A stretch of DNA of 64,000 nt from a virus, in IMG/VR virus record IMGVR_UViG_3300031539_000008, positions 1 to 64,000 of that record. One strand, written 5' to 3'. The position numbers and the translations under genes were made by a program. This document shows positions 6,586 through 61,460 of this stretch, piece by piece. Every line of letters starts with the position of its first letter. Within the stretch, counting starts at the first letter, position 1. The notes beneath the pieces are model-generated. The model was not told the origin of the DNA and did not search any database. It worked only from the letters and a program-made list of their open reading frames with translations.

Positions 6586-7049
6586 CGGAAGCCCATGTGC
6601 TCGGCGGCAGCTACCAAATGAGTGCCCATCTGCTCGTCAGCCAGGCGGAGTAGCAGCTTGTTCGGGTACACGTACCTGCGCATGGGGAACTCCCGGGATA
6701 CCGACATCTCGCTCATCGCCCGGGTCTCATCTCCGGTGAGCAGGTAGTAGCCGATCGCGGTGATGGCGGCCGAGCGCGAGATTCCAGCCTCGCAGTGGAC
6801 GAGCGTAGGGCCCTCGCCTGCCTTCGTGTAGTGGTCCACCACCCTCCGGATGACATCGGCATCGGCGGTCTTGTAGCCCTTGCGGGACCTTGTCACATCG
6901 TCGAAGCGTAGGCGTAGGACATTGTCACCCTGGACTGCTGGACGTGGGCTGCTCGGGTCGGAGATCGAGATCACGCTCGGGAAGGCGTACTGCTGAGTCA
7001 GATCCTCAGCCTCAGACCGGCCCACGAAGAAGATGGGGCGAAAGTTCAC
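6582..7049 (-). CDS. Dual-specificity/tyrosine phosphatase-like protein
   Basis: 155 residues. The active-site loop H85-C86-E-A-G-I-S-R92-S is the Cx5R signature of cysteine-based protein phosphatases, and LRFDD (D50/D51) supplies a likely general acid. YGYYLLTG-type helices follow as in small dual-specificity phosphatases. Start is GTG at 7049, overlapping the superoxide dismutase stop as GTGA with ribosome site TGGAGG. It could dephosphorylate host proteins or RNA 5' ends; the substrate cannot be told. A kinase-like protein at 11257 is a possible partner. Confidence 0.75.
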   Translation of the reverse strand: MNFRPIFFVGRSEAEDLTQQYAFPSVISISDPSSPRPAVQGDNVLRLRFDDVTRSRKGYKTADADVIRRVVDHYTKAGEGPTLVHCEAGISRSAAITAIGYYLLTGDETRAMSEMSVSREFPMRRYVYPNKLLLRLADEQMGTHLVAAAEHMGFR

Positions 7050-7648
7050 ATGGCCTCCAGGTTTGCCTCGGCGAATCTCCAGTTGACGAGGTGCTGCAAG
7101 AATGCCTGCGTGTACTCGTTCTTGCGCATGGGGTAGTCGAAGATGAAGGCGTGCTCCCACACGTCCATGACGAGCAGCGGCTCCATGCAGCCCATCTGCC
7201 AGGGCTGGTCGGAGTTGGGTGCGGACAGAATCTCCAGGTCGCCCGATTCTGGGTCGCATCCGAGCCACACCCATCCAGACCCGAACAGCCCCGCCGCGGC
7301 ACCGATCCACTCCTGGGCGAAGGCTCCGTAGTTCTGCCATCGCTCTCGGACTAGACCGGCCAAGTCCCCGACGGGGGACCCACCTCCGTTGGGCGCCATG
7401 CTCTCCCAATACAGCTCGTGATTCAGCGCCTGCTGGACGTTGTGAAGCAGCTCCAGGTCACCGGAGGTATTCACGGCGTAGTCCAGGGCGTCAGAGAGAG
7501 TGGCGGGGACAAATCTCGCAGCACGGAAAAAGTCGACCGTCCGCTGGATGTATCGCTGGTAGAGCTGGTAGTGCAGCGAAGTCGTCGCACACGAGATCCA
7601 TGGCTCCAAGGCATCGGCTCGGTAGGGGAGTGGGATCGGGGAGATCAT
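7046..7648 (-). CDS. Fe/Mn-type superoxide dismutase
   Basis: 200 residues, the normal length of the family. All four metal ligands are present: H26 in SLHYQ, H77 in LNHELYW, and D162/H166 in DVWEHA. Other family blocks are clear: LPYRADALEPWIS, APNGGG-P-G, FGSGWVWL and LVNWRF. The usual HHQTY near the first ligand is altered (YQLYQRY). It should convert superoxide to peroxide and oxygen. Start ATG at 7648 overlaps the upstream stop (ATGA). Superoxide dismutases are rare in phages, and this one sits in an operon of phage-type small genes. Confidence 0.9.
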   Translation of the reverse strand: MISPIPLPYRADALEPWISCATTSLHYQLYQRYIQRTVDFFRAARFVPATLSDALDYAVNTSGDLELLHNVQQALNHELYWESMAPNGGGSPVGDLAGLVRERWQNYGAFAQEWIGAAAGLFGSGWVWLGCDPESGDLEILSAPNSDQPWQMGCMEPLLVMDVWEHAFIFDYPMRKNEYTQAFLQHLVNWRFAEANLEAM

Positions 7649-8374: not shown

Positions 8375-8701
8375 ATGCCCGACCCAGAGCTGCCCCAGGA
8401 CATCGCCGTGGACAAATCCCACTGCCAGCATGAGCCACTGGAGATCTTTCGGCCCGGATCGCAAAGCCCATGGTCAGATGACCCAATGGCGCTCATCGCC
8501 CTGCTTCGCGGAGGCGGCGCCGCCGTGCTCAAGGTTCGGGTGTGCCGTCACTGCCAGGTGGTCTACTCCACCGTGGAGAATTGGCCTACGCCAACGCACG
8601 AGCTAGAGGCAGAGAACGATCGACTGCGAGAGGAGCTGGATGCGCTCAAGTCAGCGGCGCAGCAGCCGGCGGAGACCGGAGCCTCCACCGACGCGTCGTG
8701 A
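8375..8701 (+). CDS. Small zinc-ribbon/coiled-coil protein
   Basis: 108 residues. Residues 17-70 contain C-x-H ... C-R-H-C, a likely zinc site, and residues 75-95 form a coiled coil (HELEAENDRLREELDALK). No family recognised. Its last 51 nt overlap the convergent gene ending at 8651. Confidence 0.55.
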   Translation: MPDPELPQDIAVDKSHCQHEPLEIFRPGSQSPWSDDPMALIALLRGGGAAVLKVRVCRHCQVVYSTVENWPTPTHELEAENDRLREELDALKSAAQQPAETGASTDAS

Positions 8702-9910
8702 CCTGGCCGGGTTGGGCAGCGTCACGTTCTTGGGGTCGAGCAGGCCAGCCCTCGCCTGGTACTTGATGGCCTCGTCGATCATGTGCAGGCGGTCCTCCAG
8801 TGAGAGCGCATCGAACTTGCGGTAATACTCCGCATTCACGCCCGCAGGCAGAGGCAGGTGACCAGCGCGCGCCAGCTCGATCGCCCGCGCCACCGTGGAT
8901 CGGCTGATCTTCTCCCGGCCGCTGTCGAGCCGGTCGATGACGTGGTTGATCAGGTCATCTACGTGCCACAGGTCCCTGTCGTACACGTCGATGGTGTGGC
9001 GCGCATTTGCCAGCGCCTCCTGTTGGTCGTGCCCCCAGACACCTCGCTCCATGCCTTCTTCCGATGGCTCTTTCCACTCTGCCCGATAGTCACCGTTGGG
9101 TCGCTGGTGCACCCGAATCCGTCGGCCCTTGTACTCCCACTCGGTGTCAGCGGGGTAGCCCGCGAGAAACCTGGGAGGCTTAGCCTTGGTGTCGATGGGG
9201 TTTCCTGACGCGCCGTCATTCTCCAACTGCTTTCGGCCCTTGGCCGTGAGGAGGTAGCGTGGATCCTTGCGACGCGCATCCTTGCGGATGTACCCAAGGT
9301 GCTTGGCTGAGATGATGCTCGTGCCGTTGGCCAGCCCAGTGGTCACGTAGCCCTTCTTGCTGGCGATTCTGACGGCCTTCATGGCCAGGGCATGCAAGTC
9401 TGCACCCTTCTCCTCCAGGGCCCGTGCATGAGCCTCAGCGCTCAGCGGATCCGGCTTGGATGGATTGGCCGTGTGCAGGAGCCTGGCGTCGCCCATCGCG
9501 ATGGCTCCGCTCTCGATGCTGCCTTGGACTGGGTGGTCGCTAGGCAGCACAGCGAACTGGGGCTTGGACTTGAGGCGGTAGACGTAGTGGGGGTTCTTGG
9601 TCCGCAAGGCCCGACGGTCGGCATCGCGAGTGGCGGTGGCCAGATCCTTGAAGCGGCGGAGGCCAGGATTCGGCTTGGGCGCCCGCTCCAGGGCGCGAGC
9701 GATCTGAATCGAGAACTCTGCCGCGTTGTGGAACAGCGCTTTGTCGTTGGCGTCCGCGGCATCGGCCATCGCCTGACAGGCTTCGCAGTGCGCGGCGAGC
9801 AGAGCGCTCATGCCAACGGCGGATCCCTGGCCCGCTCCGTAGAGCATCTTGGCCATCGAGAGCCGCTTGTGGGCTCGGTCGATCCGGTCGGTGCGGCGAG
9901 CGCGTGCCAT
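8651..9910 (-). CDS. Tagged protein with N-terminal helical module
   Basis: 419 residues, not recognised. Residues 8-80 are a helical bundle rich in Ala (AHCEACQAMADAADANDKALFHNAAEF), similar in pattern to modules in the genes at 12822, 49357 and 51537. The middle contains short basic beta segments (YLLTAKGRKQLEN, YKGRRIRVHQRPNGDY) and the end carries an NP-R stretch and the tag LRRLLRR. The ATG overlaps the stop of the 33-residue gene before it (TGATG). If the tag is a loading signal, this is a virion cargo protein. Confidence 0.65.
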   Translation of the reverse strand: MARARRTDRIDRAHKRLSMAKMLYGAGQGSAVGMSALLAAHCEACQAMADAADANDKALFHNAAEFSIQIARALERAPKPNPGLRRFKDLATATRDADRRALRTKNPHYVYRLKSKPQFAVLPSDHPVQGSIESGAIAMGDARLLHTANPSKPDPLSAEAHARALEEKGADLHALAMKAVRIASKKGYVTTGLANGTSIISAKHLGYIRKDARRKDPRYLLTAKGRKQLENDGASGNPIDTKAKPPRFLAGYPADTEWEYKGRRIRVHQRPNGDYRAEWKEPSEEGMERGVWGHDQQEALANARHTIDVYDRDLWHVDDLINHVIDRLDSGREKISRSTVARAIELARAGHLPLPAGVNAEYYRKFDALSLEDRLHMIDEAIKYQARAGLLDPKNVTLPNPARSRRVGGGSGLRRLLRR

Positions 9911-10072: not shown

Positions 10073-10468
10073 CTACAACCGCATAATCCGGCGAAGCGCA
10101 TTGGGATTAGCCTTCTTTTTTGGGTTTCGCTTGGCCACTCTGAGTGCAGGGTGTGACACCACCCCAGTCCAGCCCATGCGCTCGTCCTCGGGAATCACGT
10201 CTCCAATGGCAGACTCAAGACGGTCGCGCAGGGCAATCACCGTATTGGCCTTCCGCTCACCCATGTATCCGTTCTCCCACTGTGCTCGCGCGTGCTCCAT
10301 CACGGCACCGTACAGGCTCGCCATGGCGTTCCGCGATCCAATCAGACGCGTACCTTCGATACGCGTCTCGGGGTGCGTCTCCTGCACACCTTCCAGGTGT
10401 CCCTCAAGCAGATGGTGGACCATCGCCTTGGTGATCGGAACCCGGACCTCCTTCGCATCGCTCGCCAT
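10073..10468 (-). CDS. Tagged helical protein (LRRIMRL)
   Basis: 131 residues. Mostly helical; ends RNPKKKANPNALRRIMRL, one of the clearest examples of the basic NP stretch plus C-terminal tag. No enzymatic motif seen. The ATG follows TAGCAT by six nt. Confidence 0.65.
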   Translation of the reverse strand: MASDAKEVRVPITKAMVHHLLEGHLEGVQETHPETRIEGTRLIGSRNAMASLYGAVMEHARAQWENGYMGERKANTVIALRDRLESAIGDVIPEDERMGWTGVVSHPALRVAKRNPKKKANPNALRRIMRL

Positions 10469-11256: not shown

Positions 11257-12627
11257 TCAAATTCGCATCAAGCGGTGGAATGCACTTTTGCGTCTTTTGG
11301 TCGCTTTTGTTTCAGGATTCGGCGTTTTGCTACCAGGAGCGTCCAGGTCCGCCCGGCGGAACAGGTCGTCGAACTTGCCGTCCAGGAACACGGCGTGACC
11401 TGGATCGGTGATGACCGTTATCTCGTGGTCCTCGCGTACAACCTGTCCGATGTTTCCGTAGTGAACGTCCGCCAGCACGATGCCGTGCTCCAGGTAGAAG
11501 CCGAATGTCCCTCCCACTGCGTCCGACCCGTAGCTGTGCTCCATCAACTCCGCCGAGATTCGGCACGCATCAAGAAGTGTGGACAGTCGGTGGATGCCCT
11601 TGAGGTGGCCGAGCATGTCTGCGCCTCGGTGCCACCGATTCACGAAGTCCACGGCGTCCTCGTAGTGGTCCAGCTTCTGAGCGTACTGGACGTTGTGCCG
11701 AAACTGCTCCCGACCCTTGCGCTTGCACCAATCACGGATTCGGCCAGCGGCTTCCTGCCACACGATCAGGTGCTTCTGAAACTCCTTCTCTGCTCTCCCC
11801 AGATACTGGGCCTCAGTGGTCCGCTTGCCCTGGACCCACTTGTCCGCACGCTCGCGGTCCCTGGCTGTAAGCAGGTCCCCCGTGCGCGTGGCCTCCTCGC
11901 GCCAAATCGCGTAAAGGGGGCGCCGTCGGTGCGTGCCAGGCAGGCGCATGATGTCGAAGTAGCGGACGATTCCCTCGGGTAGCTCCCCCAGTGAGAGCGC
12001 CGCCACGATGAATCTAGCCTCGGAGTCGTCCGAGGTGATCTTCATCACCACCCCTGGCGTGTGCGTGCGAAAGACCACGCCGTAGTGCCCCTCTCCAAGC
12101 TCCTGGTAGGGGTGGTCTAGGTAGCCCGGCTTCGGCGTGTAGTCCAGCGGCATCCACTTGGCCCCGACCTCCTTCACCATGGCCTCCCAGTTCTTCGCGA
12201 TGGCTTTGTCGGACCACGGTGGGTTGGGCGTCTGAGATTCACGGCGACCATTTGGCCAGTCGGTCACGCGCACGCCCGCCTTGGTGGTGACTCGATCCAT
12301 GGGCCCCGGTCCCCGGACAAAGGGGCGCTCCATGTCGCCCACCCGTCCGAGCTTCTCCTGGCCGGGCTGCTGCACGTAAGACGACGCGCCGCCGCGCCAG
12401 TCCCACTCGCCACCGTGCTCCTTGAGCTTGGCGCGGCGGTCGAGCTTCCGGCTGATGCTGTATCCCACCTTGGCGAGCTTGGCGTCGATGACATTACGGT
12501 CGGGCCTGTTCTCCCATTGGGGCGAGACCTGGAACTCGATCCGCCGGAACGGGTGATTCGGGTGCTTGACTGCGCCGTCCTCGGTCTCGTAGAGGCTCAG
12601 GCGCCACCAGTATTTCCGGCCAGCCAC
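11257..12627 (-). CDS. Tagged protein-kinase-like protein
   Basis: 456 residues. Residues about 178-196 read LGEGHYGVVFR ... VVMK, a glycine-rich loop and ATP-binding Lys. LADVHYGN at about 386 matches the catalytic loop (D-x-H-x-G-N) of kinases in the aminoglycoside-kinase/RIO style, and ITDPG at about 407 is the metal-binding DFG equivalent. The N-terminal 170 residues are unfamiliar. It ends NP ... AFHRLMRI, the basic NP stretch and tag. It may phosphorylate host proteins. GTG 12627 is chosen because TAGCAT lies five nt upstream; ATG 12642 would place that box inside the gene. Confidence 0.7.
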   Translation of the reverse strand: MAGRKYWWRLSLYETEDGAVKHPNHPFRRIEFQVSPQWENRPDRNVIDAKLAKVGYSISRKLDRRAKLKEHGGEWDWRGGASSYVQQPGQEKLGRVGDMERPFVRGPGPMDRVTTKAGVRVTDWPNGRRESQTPNPPWSDKAIAKNWEAMVKEVGAKWMPLDYTPKPGYLDHPYQELGEGHYGVVFRTHTPGVVMKITSDDSEARFIVAALSLGELPEGIVRYFDIMRLPGTHRRRPLYAIWREEATRTGDLLTARDRERADKWVQGKRTTEAQYLGRAEKEFQKHLIVWQEAAGRIRDWCKRKGREQFRHNVQYAQKLDHYEDAVDFVNRWHRGADMLGHLKGIHRLSTLLDACRISAELMEHSYGSDAVGGTFGFYLEHGIVLADVHYGNIGQVVREDHEITVITDPGHAVFLDGKFDDLFRRADLDAPGSKTPNPETKATKRRKSAFHRLMRI

Positions 12628-12632
12628 GGCCC

Positions 12633-12642
12633 ATGCTACCAT
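12633..12642. promoter_or_regulatory. Shared bidirectional -10 ATGCTACCAT
   Basis: The ten bases ATGCTACCAT contain TACCAT on the plus strand (12637-12642), six nt before the ATG at 12649, and TAGCAT on the minus strand (12638-12633), five nt before the GTG at 12627. The two divergent promoters overlap by two base pairs, so they should exclude each other. The same arrangement occurs at 13957-13966. Confidence 0.5.
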
Positions 12643-12648
12643 CGCTCC

Positions 12649-12825
12649 ATGAGCAAGCGGTTGGAGAAGAAACTCCAGTTCGTGGCCCGCGCTTTCGTCT
12701 GGGAGAACCGCTTTCAGAAGACACGCCAGGTCGTCAGACTCGTGCGTGGCCACGTCAACACGGCCAAGGACGCGAAGCAGGCTGTGAGCTTCTGGGCCCG
12801 GCTCCTGCTGCCCAAGACAGACTAG
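12649..12825 (+). CDS. Small basic helical protein
   Basis: 58 residues (MSKRLEKKLQFVARAF...), basic and helical, no family. TACCAT six nt upstream supports a leaderless start. It ends 4 nt into the convergent sigma-factor gene. Confidence 0.5.
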   Translation: MSKRLEKKLQFVARAFVWENRFQKTRQVVRLVRGHVNTAKDAKQAVSFWARLLLPKTD

Positions 12826-13949
12826 CTGAGCCCGAGTCGCCTGCGGAGAGCTGAGCGGGCTCGCTTGTGCGGGTTCTGCCCCGGTCCTCCGCCCGCCCGC
12901 TTCTTGGCCTCCTCCAGCGCCTTGATGGCCACGTCCATCTTCTTGCTCTCTTCGGCCAGCAGCTCCGCCTCCGCCTTGAGGTCCTCCATCGCCTCCTTTT
13001 GCTCCGGAGGGGACATCGTCATCAGCTTCTCGGGCGTGACGCTGACATCGGCACCGAGGCGCTCGTGGATGTCCTTTTGTAGCTTGGTGCGAGCCTTGGT
13101 CAGCGCGTCAGCCACGAGTTGGCGGTCGGCGAACCCGCCAACTACCTCCATGATCTTCGCAGCCGACATCTTCTCCATGTCTGCCAGGCGGACCAGCTCG
13201 CGGTTCTTCTCGGACAAGCTGTCCATGGCCGCCGCGACTGCGCGAGCGATACGGCGGGCACCGAGGCTGTACCCTGCCGTGCCCGTGGCGATTCCAGGAC
13301 TAATGCCAGCGATCTCCTCTTGAATCTTCGCGGTCGGCCTGACCGACTTGGCAAAACGGCCAAGGCGACGCGACCACTGCTTGCAGTTGTTGGTCACAAT
13401 CCTGTACAGCCAGGTGTAGAACTTCGATTTCCCTTGGAAGGAGCTGATCTTTTCGAGCGCGGTGAGGAAGGCGTTTTGCGTCAGATCCTTGGCATTCTGC
13501 TGGTCACCGATGGACCATCCTTTTCGTCCTGCACGCACGCAGTTGAGGGCGATTTGGTAGACCCTGTCGTAGTAGAGGGAGTAGAGCGCGCCAAATGCCT
13601 CCTGGTTGCCTGCCTGAGTTTGACTGACCAGCTCGACGATGGCCTCTTCATCCTCGCGGTCTGGCACTTTGGCCTTGGGATTCGTCCAGAGAATCGGGAC
13701 CGCCAGCATCTCCCGATCCGATCCCATGTCAGCGAGCACTCTGGACTGAAGCTGCGACGCCAATCCCACCGCCTCGTCGAGTAGGTGCACGTCTCCAGAA
13801 TACTGAGCATGCTCAGCAGCCGCGACCGCGTGCTCCAGGGCGTGAAGGCCAGCAGCCGGCGCGCGTAGGCGACTGAGCTTTCTGGCCGACTTGAGGTAGC
13901 TCTTGGCGACGTGCGCATGCACGGGCTGCGTCGGGTTGGTCCGAGCCAT
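12822..13949 (-). CDS. Tagged ECF-like sigma factor
   Basis: 375 residues. After a helical module (residues 8-65, AVAAAEHAQYSGDVHLLDEA), residues about 85-165 form sigma-70 region 2 (GNQEAFGALYSLYYDRVY ... DLTQNAFLTALEK ... WLYRIVTNNC) and about 225-290 form region 4 (LSEKNRELVRLADMEKMSA). Regions 1 and 3 are missing, as in extracytoplasmic-function sigma factors. The C-terminus is a long charged helix ending NPHKRARSALRRRLGLS, a divergent tag. It should redirect host RNA polymerase to phage promoters; the tag suggests delivery with the DNA. ATG 13949 has TACCAT seven nt upstream. Confidence 0.8.
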   Translation of the reverse strand: MARTNPTQPVHAHVAKSYLKSARKLSRLRAPAAGLHALEHAVAAAEHAQYSGDVHLLDEAVGLASQLQSRVLADMGSDREMLAVPILWTNPKAKVPDREDEEAIVELVSQTQAGNQEAFGALYSLYYDRVYQIALNCVRAGRKGWSIGDQQNAKDLTQNAFLTALEKISSFQGKSKFYTWLYRIVTNNCKQWSRRLGRFAKSVRPTAKIQEEIAGISPGIATGTAGYSLGARRIARAVAAAMDSLSEKNRELVRLADMEKMSAAKIMEVVGGFADRQLVADALTKARTKLQKDIHERLGADVSVTPEKLMTMSPPEQKEAMEDLKAEAELLAEESKKMDVAIKALEEAKKRAGGGPGQNPHKRARSALRRRLGLS

Positions 13950-13956
13950 CGGCGCC

Positions 13957-13966
13957 ATGGTAGCAT
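13957..13966. promoter_or_regulatory. Shared bidirectional -10 ATGGTAGCAT
   Basis: TACCAT on the minus strand (13962-13957) is seven nt before the sigma-factor ATG; TAGCAT on the plus strand (13961-13966) is seven nt before GTG 13974. This is the mirror image of the site at 12633, again with overlapping divergent -10 boxes and no leaders. Confidence 0.5.
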
Positions 13967-13973
13967 CCACAAC

Positions 13974-14981
13974 GTGTTCCTGACGACAGACCAGCCGGAT
14001 GGGGCCCCTTCCGAGACCTACGACTTCGTGGGCAAGTACCGCGGGGGGCACTTCTACATCAAGCTAAAGTCCCCGCCGAACGCGACAACGGCGAGCTATC
14101 GCCTGGACTACAGCAAGGCGCGCAGGGGGAAATGGGGGAGCCACCTCGACTTCCACCTGTTCGCAGAGACCCTCGCACTGGCCATGCGCGAAATGAAGTG
14201 CAGGGCCGATTGGGAGCTGTGGCAGGACGAGTGGGTTGCTTCGGACAGTCTCATCCACCGGGTGGCCAAGAGCAACATCGCGTGGCACATCCACCAAGGA
14301 TACTCCATGGGCCCGTGGGGGTTGGTGGGCATGGCGGAGGAGGCTGACAAATGGTTCAAGCACCTGGAGGTGACCCGCGGCGCGAGCGTGGTCCAGGAGT
14401 GGTGGCGCGCCCTGACATTGGACCAAAAGAGCGCTTTTCTGCGGGACGTTTGGATTTGCGAGGGGAAGGAAGTCGAGGGGCCCGCCGAGCCGTCCCCGCC
14501 ACCGAAAAGGTCCAAGCCGGATTCCGGAAAAAAATCGAAGGCCAAGACGATGCGCCATCGTGTCCGCGTGAAGGCGTCCGACACCCCGATTGTCGACCGC
14601 CTATTCGGCCACTGCAAGAAATGCCGTGTCTGCCTGGCCTACGATGTGAGCCACGGCTGCTGCACGGTCTGCGGACGACAGCTCACCCCCAACCCCGAAG
14701 ATTGGTACAAGGAGTTCATCGGGGACTGGATTCTTTCCCTCTACCCCTGGGGAGGTGCATGGAGATTCGAGCTTTACAACGAGAAAATGGACCAGGAACT
14801 CACCGGCAGCGAGCCCACGCGCTCGCGTGCTCTGGCGGCTGCCCGCCGCATCGTGATGCGCTGGCGGGCGAAGGAGAATCCGCAGCGAAAGAAGGTGGTC
14901 AAGTCACGGAGGTCCCAGACGAAACGCAAGAGGACCGAGAAGGACCGCGCGGATGTCTTCCGAAGGATGATGAAGCTGTGA
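13974..14981 (+). CDS. Tagged zinc-ribbon protein (FRRMMKL)
   Basis: 335 residues. Residues 1-150 are mixed alpha/beta with many Trp. At about 211-233 CKKCRVC and CCTVCG form a zinc ribbon. The C-terminal 60 residues are strongly basic with an NP motif, ending FRRMMKL. No enzyme family recognised. GTG start follows TAGCAT by seven nt, divergent from the sigma factor; its stop overlaps the next start (GTGA). A DNA-binding virion cargo protein is possible. Confidence 0.65.
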   Translation: MFLTTDQPDGAPSETYDFVGKYRGGHFYIKLKSPPNATTASYRLDYSKARRGKWGSHLDFHLFAETLALAMREMKCRADWELWQDEWVASDSLIHRVAKSNIAWHIHQGYSMGPWGLVGMAEEADKWFKHLEVTRGASVVQEWWRALTLDQKSAFLRDVWICEGKEVEGPAEPSPPPKRSKPDSGKKSKAKTMRHRVRVKASDTPIVDRLFGHCKKCRVCLAYDVSHGCCTVCGRQLTPNPEDWYKEFIGDWILSLYPWGGAWRFELYNEKMDQELTGSEPTRSRALAAARRIVMRWRAKENPQRKKVVKSRRSQTKRKRTEKDRADVFRRMMKL

Positions 14982-15535
14982 AGCTGTTTCACATCACCTA
15001 CGAGCGGAATCTGCCCGGCATCGCGCAGGATGGCCTTGTTCCCGGCCACACCTCGCTCTACCCATCCGGACTACACCACCACCTGCGCGGAGCGATCTTC
15101 CTGACCAGCCCAGATGGGGTGTTCTTCTGGTACACGAACTCCGAGGAGGCGATGATTCACGTCTCGGACGATCCGCAGGCAGATGGCTACACGCCAGTGG
15201 TGCTGCGCGTGCCCGAGCCAGAGCATGGCTGCGCGTACGACGAGTTGGGGACCGATGACGCTAACGCGCCTGCGTTTCGCTGTGTCACGTCCATCCCGGC
15301 CAGCAAGATCGAGCTGTGGGATGGTGAGCACTGGCTCCCGATCTCGCAGTACCAGCGTCTCGATACGTCATCGTCCTACGACGAGGACGGCTATTTCTCC
15401 GGGGACTATCCACTGCTGCCGGAGTGGAGGGATATGCAGAAGAAGGCGACGGCCAAACGGGACCAACATGCCAAGCGGTCATCTCCACGTCGAGTGAATC
15501 GCTCGGCAGCCCTGCGCAGAATGATGAAGCTGTGA
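14978..15535 (+). CDS. Tagged ADP-ribosyltransferase-like protein
   Basis: 185 residues. MKLFHITYERNLPGIAQDGLVPG matches the first block of ADP-ribosyltransferase-fold enzymes such as DarT, Tpt1/KptA and PARPs (h-x-H-x-T ... N-L-x-x-I-x-x-x-G-L). GAIFLTSPDGVFFW follows as the second strand, where an aromatic residue stacks on NAD. The catalytic Glu cannot be assigned. It ends SAALRRMMKL, the tag. T4 Alt is a known virion-packaged ADP-ribosyltransferase injected into the host, a close functional parallel. GTG start overlaps the preceding stop. Confidence 0.55.
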   Translation: MKLFHITYERNLPGIAQDGLVPGHTSLYPSGLHHHLRGAIFLTSPDGVFFWYTNSEEAMIHVSDDPQADGYTPVVLRVPEPEHGCAYDELGTDDANAPAFRCVTSIPASKIELWDGEHWLPISQYQRLDTSSSYDEDGYFSGDYPLLPEWRDMQKKATAKRDQHAKRSSPRRVNRSAALRRMMKL

Positions 15536-16080
15536 GTAGCAAAAATCCATCCGGAAACTACGTCGACAGCGACAGCTACGCCATCCAGCTTTTCATCCCG
15601 CGCCACATCAAGAAGTGGAAGGGGGTGCCGAAGAAGTTTCCGCCTGCGGCACGACATCCAAACAACAAGCCGGCTGGCGCATTTTGGACCTCGACACTGG
15701 CCGGAAATACCTCCGACTGGGACGAGTGGATGAAGGGCGAGATGCCTGAGTGGCGCGGGTCGGAGGGTGTGGTCCTGGGCGTCAAGCCAGGCGCAAGGAT
15801 CAGGCACCTGCGCACCAAGCAACAGGCGGAGGACTTCCTGGACGAGTACGGCGTGGAGACACCGGACTTCCCCTCGCTCCGGTCTGGTGGCGGTGTCTGG
15901 ACCGGCCTGTTTGAGAAGGTCCCCGACTGGCCTCGGGTCTACCGCGACTACGACGCCATGCACATGGAGGGCGCAGCCCTGCGCCATCCTGCCTTCTACG
16001 GGTGGGACGCCGAGAGCACGGGGTGGTGGAACACCAAGCATCTCAAGGACATCGGCCGCGTCGTGTTGGAGGTAGACTGA
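15532..16080 (+). CDS. Conserved-looking protein, possible ART relative
   Basis: 182 residues beginning MSSKNPSGNYV. Contains GAFWTSTL followed by S-D-W-x-x-W, VVLGVKPGARI and YDAMHMEG, an order seen in some uncharacterised proteins with an ADP-ribosyltransferase-like fold. It has no C-terminal tag. GTG start overlaps the preceding stop (GTGA), so it is coupled to the tagged ART-like gene. The ART link is weak. Confidence 0.5.
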   Translation: MSSKNPSGNYVDSDSYAIQLFIPRHIKKWKGVPKKFPPAARHPNNKPAGAFWTSTLAGNTSDWDEWMKGEMPEWRGSEGVVLGVKPGARIRHLRTKQQAEDFLDEYGVETPDFPSLRSGGGVWTGLFEKVPDWPRVYRDYDAMHMEGAALRHPAFYGWDAESTGWWNTKHLKDIGRVVLEVD

Positions 16081-20533: not shown

Positions 20534-21055
20534 CTAAAAGGCTCTGATGATTGTGTCCACCACGCGGTAGTTGACCGTCGTGGCCACACCCCCGCCCGAT
20601 CCGGTCAGCCGCACAATGACCGAACCGGCAGAAAGCAGAACGGTCACGTCGATGTCGGTCAGCGGCGCATCGCTGTCGATGATGAGCGTGGAAATATCGA
20701 CCCCGGTACCCGACACAGCGATGTCAAGCCGAAATGAGGAAGACTCCCCATTCGCCTTGGAGATGTTCATTTCGACCGCGACCTGCCCCAGGGTGTCGGG
20801 CCCCACGTTCAGGTCCTGAGTGGCGCTGTCCAGGAAGCTCGCGGTCTGGAGCGGCGGGAGGGCCCCGCCGGGCACATCCACGTTGGCCTGGCCGGGCGGT
20901 CCAGGGGTGACCACGACGCCGGGTCCGGTGAAGTTCAGGGCTGTGGCCGCAGGTACGACAACGACGCCGTCGTCCTGCACCTCAATGTCGCCGCCGCCAC
21001 CGTCGGGGACGTGGTTTCTCCAGGCGGATGGGTTGCCCTGAACGCGTTGGACCAC
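20534..21055 (-). CDS. Virion-type beta protein with RVQG-W start
   Basis: 173 residues. It starts MVQRVQGNPSAWRNH, a variant of the RVQG-WK module, then Gly-rich linker and beta-rich segments (VDVPGGALPPLQTAS, VTVLLSAGSVIVRLTGSG). No membrane helix. GTG start lies six nt after TATACT. Possibly a fibre-base or accessory fibre protein; first gene of the 21055-to-17354 operon. Confidence 0.6.
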   Translation of the reverse strand: MVQRVQGNPSAWRNHVPDGGGGDIEVQDDGVVVVPAATALNFTGPGVVVTPGPPGQANVDVPGGALPPLQTASFLDSATQDLNVGPDTLGQVAVEMNISKANGESSSFRLDIAVSGTGVDISTLIIDSDAPLTDIDVTVLLSAGSVIVRLTGSGGGVATTVNYRVVDTIIRAF

Positions 21056-39943: not shown

Positions 39944-42379
39944 CTACGCCCTCATCATCCGCGATAGCCGCCGCCGCTCACCGGCGCGTCGATCATCGCG
40001 ACGGGCACTCTTGCTGCTCCGGCGTTTGCGCGACACGAACCCACCGCCGGTCGCCAGGGCCATGTTGACCCGAGCAAACAGCCTGGTCCCCCAGGCGGAG
40101 GGGTTCTTGAGCCACCCCTCTCGTCGCGCGATAGCCTCTCGCTCCGCCTCGCCCGCCAGCTCGATGCCGCCGAATCCCATGACCGGCGGGGGCTCCGTCG
40201 GCGAGCGCGGCGACTCCTGCCACCGCGGCTTTCCCTCCCACCGCGTCGCGATGGCTTTGATTTGGGCCGCAGAGATGGGGACCCCGATGGCGTCAGCCAC
40301 CATGTCGACCACCTTCTTGGTGATTTTCGTGGCGCCAGTTGCGTCCAGCGCATCCAGAAGCGTCCACTCGAAAGACCTGAGCGCGCTCTCGGCTATCCGA
40401 TCGCTCACTCCCTCCATGGAGGCCGCCTCGGAGAGCGTGTAGCCGCCCAGGACGGCTTCCACGATTCGGAAGTCACGATGCTCCCGTTTGGCTCGGGCGC
40501 GCTCAGAGAGCACGTCTCGCCCCTTGGGCTCAGGTGGGACTGGCGGCCTACGCGCCATAATCCGCATCATCTCCTGGAACTCGCCCTTGCCGAGAGGCGT
40601 GTGCTTCCTCGGCTTCTTCAGCTTGGGTCGCTTGGCGTACCCAAAGGCTGGAGGAGGAGGGGCGACCGGAGCAAAGGTAGATGGCGGAGCCATCGCAGGA
40701 AACTTTCCACGCGGAAGCAAGCGCCTCCCTGGCTTGACGAGTTTCTCCTTGGGCCCACGGATCGGCTCGGTGACCCCCATGAGCTTGAGGGTCTCAGCCA
40801 TCAGCTCCTCAGTGGGCTCCATGCCCTCCGCCGTGGCCAAGGTGCGCACCATCTTGCGGGTCCGCCGGTATTCCGCCAGCTCCGGATCCATTGGACCGCC
40901 CTTGCGCGCCTCGATCGCGTACCGAATCTCCTGGGGCATCCCGCGGCGCTTACGCGTGTACTTGCGCGTTCTCAGGATCCTGGGCGGCTCCGTCTCCCCG
41001 GCAGCGATGGCGGTGAAGACGGCGTCGCGTTCCTTGTCTGTGCCGAGGGCGGCAAACACTGCGTCATTGAAGCGGGCCTGAGCGAGAGCCGCAGCGCGCC
41101 CTTGCCGCTTGTCGATCCTTTGCTGGCGGAAACGTAGCTCGGACCAGAAATCGTGCACGTCGTGGGCCAGGAGGTCGGCCAGGAGCGCTGAGTCCATGGC
41201 CTGACGCGATGCCTCGGTCCCGAGCAGCTCCCACAGCGCAGTACGCAGGCGCTGCTCGGACCAACTGGTCATCTTCCCGGGTTCGCGCCCCTCCTTCCGC
41301 ATCTCCTCACGCAGCTCCATCACCTTCGCCATGAAGGCATCTGGATCACTGCGGAGTAGGTTTTTCAGGTGCTCGACCAGTTTCAGCTCGGCCGTGACTG
41401 CGGCATCCGAATGAGACTTGCTGCTCGCCCCCGCCGCGTCCTTCACTCGGGTGATCTCTTCGGCGAGCGCCGCCTCGGACACCGTGCGTGAGGTCCCCGT
41501 TGGCAGCGCCGCCTGCATGGTGGCCAGGGTCACGAAGTCGGCGATCTGCTCGGCCTCGATGGGCGCCTGGTCGGCAGCCACCTTCTCGCCGTACTTCATC
41601 ATCGCCTTGACACCGCCCTTGCGATAGTGACCGATGTACTCCTTGGGCTCCGCCCCACGCATCATTTGCATGGCGAATGAGGCTACGTCGTTCAGCTCCT
41701 TGACGAGGTTGCGCCCGTCCAGCACTGGTAGGCGCCTGGTCCTGGTGAGTTCTCGCTCTCCTCGTGTCAGCTCCTGATGCAGCCTCTTGACCCTCTGGTC
41801 GTAGGGAGCGTCCATCCCAGGCGTAAGCAGCATCTTGGTAGCGGCGATGGCCCAGGTGAACTCGGCAGAATCCTTTGCCGCCTCGACGACCACCTTCTTC
41901 ACCTCTTCGACGGTCTCTGGCTGTATCTCCTGCTGCTCGATACGCCTGGTGATCCGCTCCTCCATCGGCACCTTGAGCGGACCAGCGCGCTTGATGATCT
42001 TTGCGACGCCAACATGGGTGATCCCCACGATGCGCGCGATCTCGCGGTTGCTCATTCCTTCCGCGCTGAGCGCCAGGATCTTCTCTTGAGTCTCCCTGGG
42101 AGTCTCTCGTCCTTTCGTCGTTCCGCGTCCCTTTTTGGTCAGGAGTTTGCGAATCGTGTCCGGCTTGAGCCCGGTCGCCTTTGAGATTTCTCCGTGCTTC
42201 CGACCATCATCGTGCATCTTGAGGATCAGCGCGGTTGTCCTCTCGTCCGGGTTGGCCATGGCCATGCTGGCCACTGCCGTGCTCAGCCCTAGCAGTTCCC
42301 CACGCGTCGGCGACCGCGCGGCGGACCAGTAGGTGGTGCGCGCGACTCGGCACTTCGATGGTTTCTTGGCCTTTGCCAC
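39944..42379 (-). CDS. Large tagged protein with several helix-turn-helix motifs
   Basis: 811 residues from GTG 42379. Three helix-turn-helix units: about 50-80 (HGEISKATGLKPDTIRKLL), 92-125 (LSAEGMSNREIARIVGITHV) and about 660-690 (GGYTLSEAASMEGVSDRIAES). The middle is long helices; about 580-620 is Lys/Pro-rich. The end is RRAGERRRLSRMMRA, a divergent tag. Homeodomain-like units of this type occur in transposases and terminase small subunits, but no catalytic domain is seen. Likely a DNA-binding virion protein. Confidence 0.65.
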   Translation of the reverse strand: MAKAKKPSKCRVARTTYWSAARSPTRGELLGLSTAVASMAMANPDERTTALILKMHDDGRKHGEISKATGLKPDTIRKLLTKKGRGTTKGRETPRETQEKILALSAEGMSNREIARIVGITHVGVAKIIKRAGPLKVPMEERITRRIEQQEIQPETVEEVKKVVVEAAKDSAEFTWAIAATKMLLTPGMDAPYDQRVKRLHQELTRGERELTRTRRLPVLDGRNLVKELNDVASFAMQMMRGAEPKEYIGHYRKGGVKAMMKYGEKVAADQAPIEAEQIADFVTLATMQAALPTGTSRTVSEAALAEEITRVKDAAGASSKSHSDAAVTAELKLVEHLKNLLRSDPDAFMAKVMELREEMRKEGREPGKMTSWSEQRLRTALWELLGTEASRQAMDSALLADLLAHDVHDFWSELRFRQQRIDKRQGRAAALAQARFNDAVFAALGTDKERDAVFTAIAAGETEPPRILRTRKYTRKRRGMPQEIRYAIEARKGGPMDPELAEYRRTRKMVRTLATAEGMEPTEELMAETLKLMGVTEPIRGPKEKLVKPGRRLLPRGKFPAMAPPSTFAPVAPPPPAFGYAKRPKLKKPRKHTPLGKGEFQEMMRIMARRPPVPPEPKGRDVLSERARAKREHRDFRIVEAVLGGYTLSEAASMEGVSDRIAESALRSFEWTLLDALDATGATKITKKVVDMVADAIGVPISAAQIKAIATRWEGKPRWQESPRSPTEPPPVMGFGGIELAGEAEREAIARREGWLKNPSAWGTRLFARVNMALATGGGFVSRKRRSSKSARRDDRRAGERRRLSRMMRA

Positions 42380-42404: not shown

Positions 42405-43946
42405 CTAGGTCCCCCGCATGGCCTTGCGGAGAATGTCCCTGGCCACGGGGTTCTTCTTGGCCTTCTTCTTGGCGGTTTTGACGCCCAGATACCCACCAGC
42501 GATGGCGCCGACAGGGCCGAGCAGGAGGGCACCGGCACCGCCGCCAATCGCCGCACGCTCTGCGCGCGATGGATTCTTCTTGGTCCGCTTCTTGGCCTTC
42601 TTCGCCGGCTTCTTCTTGGCTACGCCAGAGCGCCCCTTCGCCTTGCGCAGTGAGGCGCGGATCAGATCGACGGACTTCTTGCTCACTCCGCCGATGTCCC
42701 ATTTCTTGTTCTGTTTGAGGTAGCGCTCGATGTCCGCCTTGGTGAGCGTCTCCGCGGTCTTGCCCCATTCATCTGGCGCGTAGACGATCCCCTTGAAGTC
42801 GGACACGAAGGCCAAGGTTCCGTCTGGAAACTGGACCCACCACTCGACGGTCAGCTTCTCGCCCACATCCTCCGGGCCAAGGGCCAGCGTTGGCTTGCCA
42901 AACGTCTTGACCAAATCTCCGTAGCTGGCGGTGATTTTACCCTTTTGACTGGTCCCATCCAGCAGCTCAAAGTCCACTTCGGACTCGGCGAGGGTGCGGT
43001 GGGGTCCGATTGGCGCAGCGGCACGCACAGGCGCAGCTTCAGCGCCCTTCAGCGCGACATAGGCCGAGGATGCGCGCGACTTCACCGAGGCCGCACGCGA
43101 CTTCACGGTGTCCCAGAACGATGGGTTGTCCAACGCCTTGCGGAACTCGGGATTCGTCTTGACCTGGCAGGCCTCGCACCCGCAGATCTCTGGGACCAGC
43201 GTGAACTTGTCCGGGTTGGCCTGCGGACCGAAGCTGCCCTCGCCGCCGTAGTCCTTGACCAGAAACTTGCGCAGCATCGCGAGCGTGCGTCCGTGGCCGG
43301 CTCGCACCGACGGGACCCGCTCCAGGATCATCACGCTGCCCAAGCAGGATCGGTAGCCGTAGTGGTCCACACACTTGCGCAGGATCTTCTTCTGCGTGTC
43401 GCGCGGCTTGGAGAGAAATCCCTTGCCGCCGAGCTTGCCGGGTCGGGTGATAGCCTTGGCCATCCACTTCGCCTTGGGAGGCGTACCCTTGTTCAGTCGT
43501 GGGTTCGTCTTCATTTCCTTGTTGGCCCACTCAGTGGCCCGACGCACCGCATCGCTGATGGATTTGGCCTGGTGGGTCAGCTCGCGCTGCCTGGTACGGC
43601 CTTCGTCCTGGACGACGGAGTAGTAGTTGCCCGGAACGAACGGATCAAGGCCGACCGTGAGAAATAGAGCACCCTTGGTGAGTGCGGCGGTCTCGTTGAC
43701 GTGGTCGATGGCCTCCAGCATCCAGCCGTTGACGGGATTCTTCACGGCCCCTCGTCTCGCCTTGCTCCTGGCGCCCGGCGGGTAGTAGGTCACCGGACCG
43801 ACCCCCATCATGTGTCCGCCGATGCCTGACGTGGGCACCAGCTCCCCAAGCAAGTAGCTCTCGGGCACCGGGCCCGGCGGCATCCTCTTGATCTTGTGCC
43901 CCTTGGGCACCGATGACTTCCGTTTGGGAGGATTTTTCTTGGCCAT
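42405..43946 (-). CDS. Basic tagged protein with Gly-rich hydrophobic segment
   Basis: 513 residues. Starts MAKKNPPKRKSS and ends KKNPVARDILRKAMRGT, the strongest form of the tag. Middle contains CGCEACQVKTNPEF (Cys cluster), then a globular part with SEVDFELLDGTSQKGKI; residues about 465-490 (AIGGGAGALLLGPVGAIAGGYLG) could insert in a membrane between two Lys-rich runs. No enzyme motif. Probably a structural or cargo virion protein. Confidence 0.65.
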   Translation of the reverse strand: MAKKNPPKRKSSVPKGHKIKRMPPGPVPESYLLGELVPTSGIGGHMMGVGPVTYYPPGARSKARRGAVKNPVNGWMLEAIDHVNETAALTKGALFLTVGLDPFVPGNYYSVVQDEGRTRQRELTHQAKSISDAVRRATEWANKEMKTNPRLNKGTPPKAKWMAKAITRPGKLGGKGFLSKPRDTQKKILRKCVDHYGYRSCLGSVMILERVPSVRAGHGRTLAMLRKFLVKDYGGEGSFGPQANPDKFTLVPEICGCEACQVKTNPEFRKALDNPSFWDTVKSRAASVKSRASSAYVALKGAEAAPVRAAAPIGPHRTLAESEVDFELLDGTSQKGKITASYGDLVKTFGKPTLALGPEDVGEKLTVEWWVQFPDGTLAFVSDFKGIVYAPDEWGKTAETLTKADIERYLKQNKKWDIGGVSKKSVDLIRASLRKAKGRSGVAKKKPAKKAKKRTKKNPSRAERAAIGGGAGALLLGPVGAIAGGYLGVKTAKKKAKKNPVARDILRKAMRGT

Positions 43947-43949: not shown

Positions 43950-44228
43950 TCAGCGTCTTCCGCGACCCTTGAGCGTGAGCCCGATGGCACCACGGCCCAC
44001 GATGGCGTTGTTTTCTTGTGGCCAGCGGCCGGCGATCGGACCGATAATTCCTGCGCGCTCTGGGTTGCCCATGCCACGCGGAAGGACCTGCGCGCTCATG
44101 TGGCGCCCATCGCCCTGGAGCGGTCCGTAGCTCTTGTTGGGCTTGTAGGTGGAAACCAGGACGCTGCGTCCGTCCAGTCCGCCGATGCCAGCTCCCAGAT
44201 CTGTGTCGCTCATTGATGGGTTGTGCAT
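43950..44228 (-). CDS. Small basic protein ending LTLKGRGRR
   Basis: 92 residues. N-terminus MHNPSMSDTDLGAGIGGL is shared with the gene at 44881. Ends GAIGLTLKGRGRR, an instance of the recurring L-T-x-(K/R)-(R/G)-G motif; also PRGMGNP. No membrane helix. Likely a small virion protein. Confidence 0.55.
   Translation of the reverse strand: MHNPSMSDTDLGAGIGGLDGRSVLVSTYKPNKSYGPLQGDGRHMSAQVLPRGMGNPERAGIIGPIAGRWPQENNAIVGRGAIGLTLKGRGRR
44175..44223. repeat. 49-bp direct repeat, copy 1
   Basis: Identical to 45271-45319. It encodes the common N-terminus NPSMSDTDLGAGIGGL of two neighbouring genes that otherwise differ. Confidence 0.8.
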
Positions 44229-44880: not shown

Positions 44881-45324
44881 TTATCGGAACACGTTTTTCA
44901 CTTTACACATGCCCTTGCAGACCTTGAGCTTGTACTCAGCTCCGCCACCATGCTTGGAGATGCAGTCCGCCTCGCAGCGGTTGGATCCGCCGCCACGGGG
45001 AGACATGCCACCGCGAGCGCTGACGGCCTTCAGTGTCCCTCGCGTGCGACGACGCCCCATGCCCAACGTCTTGGGTGCCTGGGTCGAGACCGCGCCACGG
45101 TAGTAGTCGTCACCACGCTCTCCGTCGACCTGGAAGTGGTTGCCGAACACGCGGTTGGCGTAGGAATTGCCATCCGTATTCACCGTGGCTCGAAAGTGAC
45201 CTGGCTGAACCTGCTGGAGGTCCACCGAGAACTCGCTTCCGAACACGCGTTGGGCGTAGGAAGGTGCGCCCAGTCCGCCGATGCCAGCTCCCAGATCTGT
45301 GTCGCTCATTGATGGGTTGCGCAT
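44881..45324 (-). CDS. Basic Cys-rich protein with internal repeat
   Basis: 147 residues. N-terminus MRNPSMSDTDLGAGIGGL as in 43950. Two copies of (Y)A(Q/N)RVFG(S/N)-(E/H)-F-x-V-D at about 25 and 58 suggest an internal duplication. C-terminus has GMGRRRTRG and CEADCISKHGGG ... VCKGMCKV. Probably a small virion protein. Confidence 0.55.
   Translation of the reverse strand: MRNPSMSDTDLGAGIGGLGAPSYAQRVFGSEFSVDLQQVQPGHFRATVNTDGNSYANRVFGNHFQVDGERGDDYYRGAVSTQAPKTLGMGRRRTRGTLKAVSARGGMSPRGGGSNRCEADCISKHGGGAEYKLKVCKGMCKVKNVFR
45271..45319. repeat. 49-bp direct repeat, copy 2
   Basis: Second copy of 44175-44223. Confidence 0.8.
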
Positions 45325-45342: not shown

Positions 45343-45636
45343 TCAGCGATTCGTATGGTACGCGAGCCTACAGACTCCCTGGCAGCAGACCCACAGGCCC
45401 TTGTGGTCAACCCTTGCCTTACAGCCGCGCGGGATCCTGGGTCGACTCGCTCGCTTGGTCGCTCCCACGCCACGGCGACATCCAGAGGACACCGGGGTTC
45501 CGACGGGTAGCATGGTCTGCGCGGCGCATCCACCGATGCCGGGAAACCACAGCCCCATCATCGCTGGCTGTATGGCCGCTAGGTTCTCCAGCGCCATGGT
45601 CTCGCTGTCAGCTTCGGCTCTGCACGGGTTGAACAT
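45343..45636 (-). CDS. Basic Cys-rich protein with RRGVGA motif
   Basis: 97 residues. MFNP start; CRRGVGATKRASRP is the R-R-G-V-G-A motif followed by a basic stretch; C-terminus GCKARVDHKGLWVCCQGVC matches the C-x(6-10)-G-x-W-V-C mini-domain of the genes at 53101 and 54881. Start overlaps the preceding stop (TGATG). Confidence 0.55.
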   Translation of the reverse strand: MFNPCRAEADSETMALENLAAIQPAMMGLWFPGIGGCAAQTMLPVGTPVSSGCRRGVGATKRASRPRIPRGCKARVDHKGLWVCCQGVCRLAYHTNR

Positions 45637-46067
45637 CAGACGATCCGCACGATGGTTGCGCCGCGCACGGTCGGCACCTCGGTCGGGACAACTTGATTCT
45701 GGTCGGAGATGTCGACCTGGACCGCGCCAGGCGCAGCGGCCTCCAGGATGAAGCGATGGATGTACGGCGCGCCCGGCATGGCCTCCTCGGGCTCCTCGAC
45801 CTCCTCGGTGACGATCAGCGTGGGGTCACCCTCGACGGCTTCCGTGAAGATCGTCCACTCGTAGGCCGTGCCGCTGGCATGAGGCAGCTCGATGGTCAGC
45901 ACGTCTCCGAGGTTCAGCTCAACCTCGGTGGGCAGCTCGGACAGCTCGGTGATGAGTACCTGCTCCGGAGGCTGCCCGCCGTTTCCGTCCTTGACTTTGT
46001 CGCCCTTGCTCTTGGCGAGCAGAATGACGGCTCCGACGATGAGAACTGGTACAAGTGGAAATGGCAT
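45636..46067 (-). CDS. Membrane-anchored chagasin-like (I42) protein
   Basis: 143 residues. One hydrophobic anchor (MPFPLVPVLIVGAVILLAKSKGDK), then a beta domain that follows the peptidase inhibitor I42 pattern: LGDVLTIELPHASGTAYEWTI in the place of the G-D-x-h-x-h-x-L-P-x-N-P-T-T-G-Y-x-W block, and MPGAPYIHRFILEAAAPGAVQVDI for the second half. The NPTTG loop is HASGT, so inhibitory activity is doubtful. Alternatively a generic immunoglobulin-like domain. Confidence 0.5.
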   Translation of the reverse strand: MPFPLVPVLIVGAVILLAKSKGDKVKDGNGGQPPEQVLITELSELPTEVELNLGDVLTIELPHASGTAYEWTIFTEAVEGDPTLIVTEEVEEPEEAMPGAPYIHRFILEAAAPGAVQVDISDQNQVVPTEVPTVRGATIVRIV

Positions 46068-46463: not shown

Positions 46464-46787
46464 CTACCTGTCGTAGATCGAGCGAAATTGGTCTCTGACC
46501 AACTGATTGACGAGCTGCTTCTTGGTCACGCGACCGTACCGCTTGAGCACAGGCTTTTTTTTTGCCTTCTTGCGGCGGCGCTTGGGGTTGTGTGACTCGA
46601 TGGTGGCCAGCTTCTTGTAGTAGGCCTTGTCTTCGGTCAGGTGATCCATGGCGATCTCGACGGCCACCATGAAGTCGCTGGTGTGCTCCGTCTCAACCAG
46701 CGCTCCGCGAGCGAGTTCCACGGCGTTGAAGTCAGAGGGGGACTTCCCCACTGACAGACCGCCGGGTATGCGCTCGCGCCACGTCAC
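46464..46787 (-). CDS. Basic protein, resembles DUF5661
   Basis: 107 residues from GTG 46787 (GTGA overlap). KSPSDFNAVELARGALVETEHTSDFMVAVEIAMDHLTEDKAYYKKL follows the pattern of DUF5661 proteins (D-F ... L-x-x-G-x-x-V-E-x-E-H-T ... I-A-x-D-H-L-x-E-x-x-x-Y-Y). A Lys/Arg tail with an NP motif follows. No tag. Function unknown. Confidence 0.6.
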   Translation of the reverse strand: MTWRERIPGGLSVGKSPSDFNAVELARGALVETEHTSDFMVAVEIAMDHLTEDKAYYKKLATIESHNPKRRRKKAKKKPVLKRYGRVTKKQLVNQLVRDQFRSIYDR

Positions 46788-49356: not shown

Positions 49357-50058
49357 TCAGATCCTCATCAGTCTGCGCAGCGTTTTCCGCTGCTCGGGTT
49401 TCAGCTTTTTCTTCGGCATGCGTATTCCGCCGCCGACCGATTCGCCCGCGCGTTGGGCGAGCCAGTTGCAAAGGCCGCCGGGGGATTCGACATCTGGACG
49501 TGCCTCCATGATGGCGAGACAGGCGCTCATACTGCCGCCTGGAATGTCGACAGGATTCCCCTCGTAGGGTCCGACGCCGTATCTGGCGGTAATCTTCTGA
49601 GCCACACGAAGCAGGCTCCGAGCTTCCGTGACTCCGTTTTGTCCAAGTTTGCGGGCTGGCCCAGGGTCGTCTCCAGAGTGTTCCGCTTCGCCCACGGCCA
49701 CCGCTGCGTATTTGATGGTGTCCAGGGCTCCGTTGAAAGCCACTGTGAAATCTTCCACCCGCTGAGCCTTCTCGAAAGCCTTGGCGGCGAGACGCATCGC
49801 CTTGCGGTACCGATCCGCGTGTTCACTGCGTCCTGGGTTGGCTAGCTGCGGATCGAACCCGTACCTCCGCATGATCGAGAGGTTGTTCTTCACCGCCCGC
49901 CAGTCGCTCGGCGTCTGCGACATGAACACCGAGCCCTTCCCGCCCGGGGACGATAGCTTCCAATGACCAGCCTTGCGCAGCGTGGCTGTCCATCCCTGCG
50001 CCTTGGCCTGCTCGATCACCTCGCGCATGCGCCTGGAAAGGTCTGACTTGCGGGACAT
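49357..50058 (-). CDS. Tagged HicA-like protein with helical module
   Basis: 233 residues. Residues 8-70 resemble the HicA/dsRBD-like fold seen in phage proteins: AKAQGWTATLRKAGHWKLSSP ... TPSDWRAVKNNLSIMRRYGF. Residues 78-150 are the helical module (AAVAVGEAEHSGDDPGPARK). Ends LKPEQRKTLRRLMRI, the tag. HicA proteins bind or cut RNA; the usual His of the GHxxf site is present (GHWKL). A packaged RNA-acting effector is possible. Confidence 0.6.
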   Translation of the reverse strand: MSRKSDLSRRMREVIEQAKAQGWTATLRKAGHWKLSSPGGKGSVFMSQTPSDWRAVKNNLSIMRRYGFDPQLANPGRSEHADRYRKAMRLAAKAFEKAQRVEDFTVAFNGALDTIKYAAVAVGEAEHSGDDPGPARKLGQNGVTEARSLLRVAQKITARYGVGPYEGNPVDIPGGSMSACLAIMEARPDVESPGGLCNWLAQRAGESVGGGIRMPKKKLKPEQRKTLRRLMRI

Positions 50059-50066: not shown

Positions 50067-50399
50067 CTACCGAGCGAAGACCTCGGCGCGTGTGTGAAGT
50101 CGGCCTTCATCGAACTCGATGTGGTCGCGTTCAACCTGATCTACCAACTCGGCCGGGCAATACCTGCGGAACGGAAGCATCTCCCGTGCCGCGTGCTCTG
50201 CGACGAGGTCTGGCGGAAAGCCAAGGTTCCGCAGCATCCGATGCTCACGGCGCAACTTGTGTTGTTGAGCGTTGGGCAGATACGGAAACAGCGAATCCTC
50301 CTCAAATGCGAAGTGGCATTCCAAACAGCACGCCACATCCATGCGGCAACTATTCATCTTGTCTTTGCAGGCTCCGCAACATGGTGGCTTGACTGGCAT
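50067..50399 (-). CDS. Cys/His-rich protein, possible hemerythrin-like
   Basis: 110 residues from ATG 50399. N-terminus has Cys pairs (CCGAC, CCLEC). Then H-x-x-F-E-E, L-R-R-E-H, E-H-A-A-R-E and E-R-D-H-I-E-F are spaced along four helices as in hemerythrin-type (HHE) iron proteins. The match is by spacing only. Confidence 0.45.
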   Translation of the reverse strand: MPVKPPCCGACKDKMNSCRMDVACCLECHFAFEEDSLFPYLPNAQQHKLRREHRMLRNLGFPPDLVAEHAAREMLPFRRYCPAELVDQVERDHIEFDEGRLHTRAEVFAR

Positions 50400-61409: not shown

Positions 61410-61460
61410 TTGGGAGTTCTCCTCGCTTGAGTCTACGCGGCCAGGCGCCGCGGGTACAGG

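Follow-up and report, generated by a model that had tools for sequence, protein, structure and literature searches.

Why should a kinase-like protein, a sigma factor, a zinc-ribbon protein and an ADP-ribosyltransferase (ART)-like protein, encoded side by side in an uncultured phage, end in variants of one short peptide? The locus occupies positions 11257-15535 of a 64,000-base window of viral DNA (bases 1-64000 of a 102,604-base IMG/VR virus record, 63% GC). An initial annotation proposed that all four proteins carry a common C-terminal tag and form a set of takeover enzymes packaged in the virion in advance. The remaining 38.6 kb of the record was also read, and 176 genes were called from codon statistics; no tRNA genes were found in the window. 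The four genes of the locus are all real, with good coding scores. At least 13 otherwise unrelated proteins of this phage were found to share the short C-terminal peptide, which is selected, specific to the C-terminus and appended to its carriers through basic linkers, with domain boundaries rich in Asn-Pro (NP). The four genes and their principal features are as follows.

11257-12753, minus strand: kinase-like tagged protein, 498 amino acids (aa), motif block at 11398-12099, NP linkers, ending SAFHRLMRI
11260-11283, minus strand: C-terminal tag AFHRLMRI, leave-one-out position-specific scoring matrix (PSSM) score 13.0
12822-13970, minus strand: extracytoplasmic function (ECF) sigma factor, 382 aa, with N-terminal helical module, NP linkers and weak tag, ending SALRRRLGLS
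13074-13601, minus strand: sigma region 2 to region 4 domain, matching positions 1-163 of 165 in the TIGR02937 model
13743-13943, minus strand: helical module flanked by NP, found by phmmer also in 51537-52331
12825-12851, minus strand: weak tag ALRRRLGLS, leave-one-out PSSM score 5.8, a member of the blind cluster described below
13974-14981, plus strand: zinc-ribbon tagged protein, 335 aa, paired CxxC at 14613-14672 seen directly, ending DVFRRMMKL
14955-14978, plus strand: C-terminal tag VFRRMMKL, PSSM score 14.8
14978-15535, plus strand: ART-like (Tpt1/DUF7002-like) tagged protein, 185 aa, domain at 14978-15421, ending AALRRMMKL
15509-15532, plus strand: C-terminal tag ALRRMMKL, PSSM score 20.4

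The tag occurs in two forms, ...ALRRMM[KR]L and ...ILRKAMRGT, of which the second can be aligned to the first (xLR[RK]x[ML]R); the motif of the whole cluster is xLR[RK]x[ML][RK]. A regular expression for the RRMM form matched 9 of the 176 called genes, against 0.03 expected from shuffles of the last 40 residues of each protein, and the ILRKAMRG or ILRKFSKI form is present on five more genes. Because this expression was drafted only after the tags were known and is therefore post hoc, we relied on two further tests, a leave-one-out PSSM and motif-free clustering. In the former, the 14 tagged genes fall within the 15 best-scoring C-termini, and scores of at least 10 are reached by 9 C-termini but by only 2 of 27,413 internal windows, so the motif is specific to the C-terminus. 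In the latter, unsupervised clustering of all C-termini returned one cluster of 13 members; the diverged fourteenth, a Lys-rich protein at 47476-48840 that ends ILRKFSKI, lies outside it. The same clustering applied to four kin phages (G001, G002, G010 and G011), which have almost nothing else in common with this phage, gave just small or acidic clusters, with pair counts little above the shuffled level. Pairwise comparison of the four ILRKAMRGT copies over the last 10 codons showed 4-7 synonymous codon differences and 1-2 residue differences, at 63-80% nucleotide identity. As the synonymous differences exceed the residue differences, it is the peptide and not the DNA that is conserved, and the tag peptide is under selection.

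The 31 residues that precede the tag have a mean net charge of +6.5, compared with -0.25 in other proteins. The tagged proteins also contain 36 Asn-Pro dipeptides where 6.0 are expected (6-fold), compared with 59 where 41 are expected in the remaining proteins, and many of these dipeptides separate what appear to be domains. The sigma protein and 51537-52331 have in common a helical module with Asn-Pro at its borders (phmmer domain E 1e-4). The enrichment hints, no more, at possible processing at Asn-Pro. Outside the four-gene locus, the tagged proteins in the window are the following.

8651-9910, minus strand: multidomain protein (helical, winged-helix-like and small beta-alpha domains, by eye), five NP linkers, tag GLRRLLRR
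10073-10468, minus strand: tagged protein, ALRRIMRL, PSSM score 16.2
39944-42379, minus strand: 811-aa helix-turn-helix (HTH) protein, tag RLSRMMRA
42405-43946, minus strand: protein with eight NP and a glycine-zipper segment, tag ILRKAMRGT
47476-48840, minus strand: H1-like Lys-rich protein, net charge +0.31 per residue, diverged tag ILRKFSKI, PSSM score 9.3
49357-50028, minus strand: HicA-like N-terminal domain (phrog_2089, 1.6e-13; phrog_353 toxin, 0.018), NP, helical domain, tag TLRRLMRI, PSSM score 16.9
50399-51127, minus strand: RadC/JAB protein (phrog_10276 DNA repair, 3.1e-29; PRK00024 RadC, 3.6e-43), tag ILEKAMRGT
51127-51504, minus strand: tagged protein, ILRKAMRGT, PSSM score 21.1, synonymous divergence
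51537-52331, minus strand: protein with the helical module of the sigma protein, five NP linkers, tag ILRKAMRGT
55262-56218, minus strand: tagged protein, FMRRMMNI

The set is thus wider than the takeover enzymes first proposed, as it includes the H1-like Lys-rich protein, the RadC-like JAB protein, winged-helix and HTH proteins and several proteins of unknown function. Within the locus itself, the claim that all four proteins are tagged is clear for the kinase-like, zinc-ribbon and ART-like proteins and weak for the sigma protein.

The functional labels given to the four proteins hold to differing degrees. The firmest is that of 12822-13970, which is identified by its profile matches as a complete ECF sigma factor: it scores 64.4 bits against NCBIfam TIGR02937 (cut-off 42.9) over residues 124-299, matches Sigma70_r2 at 8.7e-14 and region 4 weakly (0.062), and has regions 2 and 4 without 1.1/3, as in the ECF type. 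The zinc ribbon is likewise supported, by its CxxC pairs. The sigma and zinc-ribbon genes start back to back, about 3 bases apart (13970-13974), so their promoters must sit within each other's genes; inspection of upstream regions for 7-mers revealed no late-promoter motif. The label kinase-like for 11257-12753 comes from motifs, as LGEGHYGVVF, VVMKI, HGIVLADVHYGN and ITDPG follow one another in order. The ordered pattern of Gly-rich loop, Lys, D-x-H-x-x-N and D-x-G, which was composed with this protein in view, occurs in 1 of 1088 phage proteins and in 0 of 20,000 shuffles. The protein has a weak profile match to the T7 kinase PHROG (E 0.014) and none to Pfam or PDB kinases. For 14978-15535, the match to a divergent Tpt1-like ART is very weak (Tpt1/KptA, E 0.094 and 0.43; DUF7002, 0.006). 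A first-strand Tpt1/DarT-like motif, [YF]H.T...L..I...GL.P, is present and is kept in a homologue from another phage (L120), and the usual catalytic Tyr and Glu appear to be absent, with FLT instead of YLT and no Glu before the IPA motif in a two-sequence alignment read by eye. Neither protein matched its polyvalent-protein family profile, Pfam Kinase-PolyVal for the former and ART-PolyVal for the latter (PF18762, PF18760), and single-sequence AlphaFold2 models of both, with predicted local distance difference test scores of 36 (poor) and 43, respectively, were unusable.

The only homologue found of the ART-like protein lies in the 118-kb phage G002 (L120:5470-6027(-); 39% identity, E 6e-27) and has neither linker nor tag. 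It stops where the basic linker of 14978-15535 starts, which identifies linker and tag as an add-on. A second scan with the ART-like pair as query returned the same G002 locus and nothing further. A different connection is provided by the next gene.

15532-16080, plus strand: untagged neighbour with N-terminus SSKNPSGN (phrog_8582, E 1.7e-4), its start overlapping the end of the ART-like gene

This protein has a homologue (E 4.5e-8) encoded in a gene array of the 484-kb phage LR756508 (LR756508.1, L087:19495-27888). The array lies immediately before fibre-like genes and comprises about 11 genes in succession; nearly all of their products start M..LK[DN]LLxE, and one is a zeta-toxin-like P-loop protein. 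In our reading, this N-terminal motif resembles the capsid-targeting sequence (CTS) of T4. M..LK[DN]LLxE and LRRMM share the same hydrophobic-basic-polar-hydrophobic-hydrophobic order, and the LR756508 array may encode virion-delivered proteins. In addition, 46464-46787 (DUF5661) matches a segment of a G010 phage protein (L111:7921-11730) that is 1269 aa long. The latter combines a LigD phosphoesterase, an ATP-dependent ligase and a DUF5661 domain, ends in a glycine zipper, and appears to be of polyvalent type with a DNA ligase.

One terminal tag on enzymes of unrelated kinds looks like a capsid-targeting system, and a short terminal peptide on proteins otherwise unrelated is what a T4-type CTS provides. 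Packaging into the virion by a C-terminal analogue of that sequence is the best explanation we can offer, and one that could equally well prove right or wrong; the tagged set can be described just as fittingly as cargo belonging to a nucleoprotein core. The tag would then serve for docking, as a short peptide at the C-terminus that is borne on a basic linker and would be amphipathic as a helix. It would bring unrelated proteins together in a single assembly, most likely the core of DNA or scaffold in the virion under construction. Tagged proteins made late would enter the particle with the genome, next to the H1-like protein, and be delivered with the DNA, and the delivered ECF sigma, kinase-like and ART-like proteins could act ahead of phage gene expression. 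Virion location, ejection, early action and Asn-Pro processing are steps that we infer from the sequences. Circumstantial support for packaging comes from the appended tag module, the homologue of 15532-16080 in the CTS-like array and the 46464-46787 domain in the multidomain protein of G010. In T4, about 10 N-terminal residues of IPIII suffice for targeting, and Alt is packaged and ejected (PMC9026906). Furthermore, polyvalent proteins, for which injection has been predicted, repeatedly contain ART, kinase and RadC domains (PMC5512222), and for about 44% of phage ARTs the context hints at packaging (PMC9503650). That the sigma factor is injected is plausible but doubtful. More doubtful still is the complete scheme, in which a C-terminal capsid-targeting code would load at least 13 proteins, the complete ECF sigma factor included, and the latter would redirect host RNA polymerase at entry, with the Asn-Pro linkers as module cut sites.

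Several observations weigh against packaging. To our knowledge, phage CTSs are all N-terminal, and none of the prohead proteases known to us cuts at NP. The T4-type CTS is defined in part by its N-terminal location, and the present tag is C-terminal. The T4 sequence is removed by a protease (PMC9026906, PMC3012670), and no cleavage site was identified for this tag. The most striking part of the proposal, an injected sigma factor, falls on the protein with the weakest tag in the set; because it scores 5.8 where one untagged gene reaches 7.6, the sigma tag taken alone is not significant. It is backed by an NP-plus-basic linker and by the helical module in common with the tagged 51537-52331. The CTS-like reading of the LR756508 array is itself drawn from sequence. 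No capsid, portal, terminase (phrog_2) or prohead protease was recognised in the record, which is possibly a fragment, and with no terminase, capsid or protease the tag cannot be linked to a head. Finally, no relative carrying the tag was found: an AAA-ATPase alignment led to 80 loci, none with the tag, and IMG/VR scans with single proteins (the kinase, DnaB and a candidate capsid protein) returned no relative. Patterns for both tag forms and the N-terminal motif, a genome-contig scan for the ILRKAMRGT form and tblastn to plasmids gave no relative either, and tblastn of concatenated structural and tagged proteins against annotated phages yielded M15 peptidase, HicA-like and LR756508 matches only; scans of this kind detect close relatives or exact forms only and are weak evidence of absence. 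Overall, the idea of a pre-packaged set is supported in part.

The basic linkers and the H1-like, HTH, RadC and sigma members of the set would also suit a tag that gathers DNA-related proteins at the phage DNA, or at a replication or transcription compartment in the cell, with linker and helix forming a DNA- or partner-binding tail. We consider this alternative unlikely, as DNA binding is not obvious for the kinase-like and ART-like proteins, a virion route is suggested by the CTS-like array of LR756508, and nucleus-forming phages read import from surface residues and use no terminal signal (PMC12908238). For this last reason, a phage-nucleus import tag was rejected as first choice. The hydrophobic and basic pattern would be suitable for a short amphipathic helix that binds the host inner membrane or a virion membrane, and about a dozen proteins of the same phage have an N-terminal hydrophobic anchor; with only 8-9 residues in the tag and no overlap between anchor set and tag set, we regard membrane binding as improbable.

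Short C-terminal peptides can serve as protease signals, and the tag might accordingly be a C-degron or chaperone tail by which the phage controls how long its regulators last. That role, which leaves the long basic linker unexplained and does not suit the Lys-rich DNA-binding-like and multidomain carriers, is more improbable again. Two adjacent genes both end ATGATGAAGCTGTGA, as might be expected if the tags were functionless relics of gene-end recombination or duplication. This is the least probable account, and a very improbable one, given that the ILRKAMRGT copies differ by 4-7 synonymous and 1-2 residue changes at 63-80% nucleotide identity and that the tags lie on both strands, in two distant clusters; the synonymous excess led us to reject neutral relics.

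Proteins with other terminal motifs are also encoded. In about a dozen, a short hydrophobic stretch at the N-terminus precedes GG/KKK or RRR, and none of them is C-terminally tagged.

1777-2418, 45636-46067, 56923-57546, 61696-62490 and 62920-63585 of the window, and L001:109-6445: N-terminal anchor set

The set, which would be a second terminal sorting class directed perhaps to a membrane, probably includes an M15 peptidase (1777-2418) and a chagasin-like inhibitor (45636-46067), both families having been matched in the scanned gene set as a whole. Paralogues at 43950-44228 and 44881-45324 start MxNPSMSDTDLGAGIGGL, a motif not found in other viral contigs, and virion-like proteins at 832-1767, 20534-21055 and 61227-61658 share an N-terminal VQGxGxGxxWK-type motif. 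The product of 7046-7648 is probably an Fe/Mn superoxide dismutase (Sod_Fe_C, 1.5e-26 for one gene of the scanned set); its only genome relative found is 27% identical.

If the tag is a packaging signal, the protein set delivered by the phage could be read from C-termini in sequence, and reporters of choice could be loaded into particles by means of the tag. Delivery of a sigma factor in the virion, if true, would be a third route to control of transcription from entry, besides T4 Alt and virion RNA polymerases. We know of no C-terminal phage tag common to a whole protein set, and a search of the open-access literature, which cannot prove absence, found no virion-packaged sigma factor. Unsupervised terminus clustering found both the C-terminal tag set and the N-terminal array of LR756508, and may therefore uncover such sets in other uncultured phages.

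Among known systems, T4 resembles this phage in that its packaged but unrelated proteins IPI, IPII, IPIII and Alt bear a single short terminal peptide, the CTS (PMC9026906, PMC3012670). The T4 set includes an ADP-ribosyltransferase that targets host RNA polymerase, as the tagged set includes an ART-like protein; the T4 sequence is N-terminal and cut by gp21, whereas the present tag is C-terminal, has no recognised protease or cleavage site and is only predicted to direct packaging. Polyvalent proteins share the ART, kinase and RadC domains and predicted co-injection with DNA, and their kinases are described as having an insert between the catalytic His and Asp and a short C-lobe, to which 11257-12753, with additional residues separating its His and Asp and little after DPG, is similar (PMC5512222). 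They differ in that the proteins here are separate and joined by a common tag, with neither a PolyVal Pfam match nor a zincin protease observed. Head ejection proteins of the phiKZ/SPN3US type and the N4 virion RNA polymerase also represent virion-delivered transcription machinery, and a C-terminal propeptide of the SPN3US protease, proposed to act in prohead targeting, is reminiscent of the C-terminal tag (PMC5694885, PMC7411985). These phages deliver a polymerase where a sigma factor would be delivered here, and their propeptides are mostly long and N-terminal. The LR756508 array, with about 11 consecutive cargo-like genes that nearly all share one terminal motif and include the 15532-16080 homologue, differs in its N-terminal position, other motif and single gene array, and its virion location is likewise predicted. 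Encapsulin cargo-loading peptides are short C-terminal peptides that dock cargo in an HK97-fold shell; their sequence is different from that of the tag, and no shell gene was recognised here. Parts of the tag system therefore have precedents in the T4 CTS, the propeptides of SPN3US, polyvalent proteins and the cargo peptides of encapsulins.

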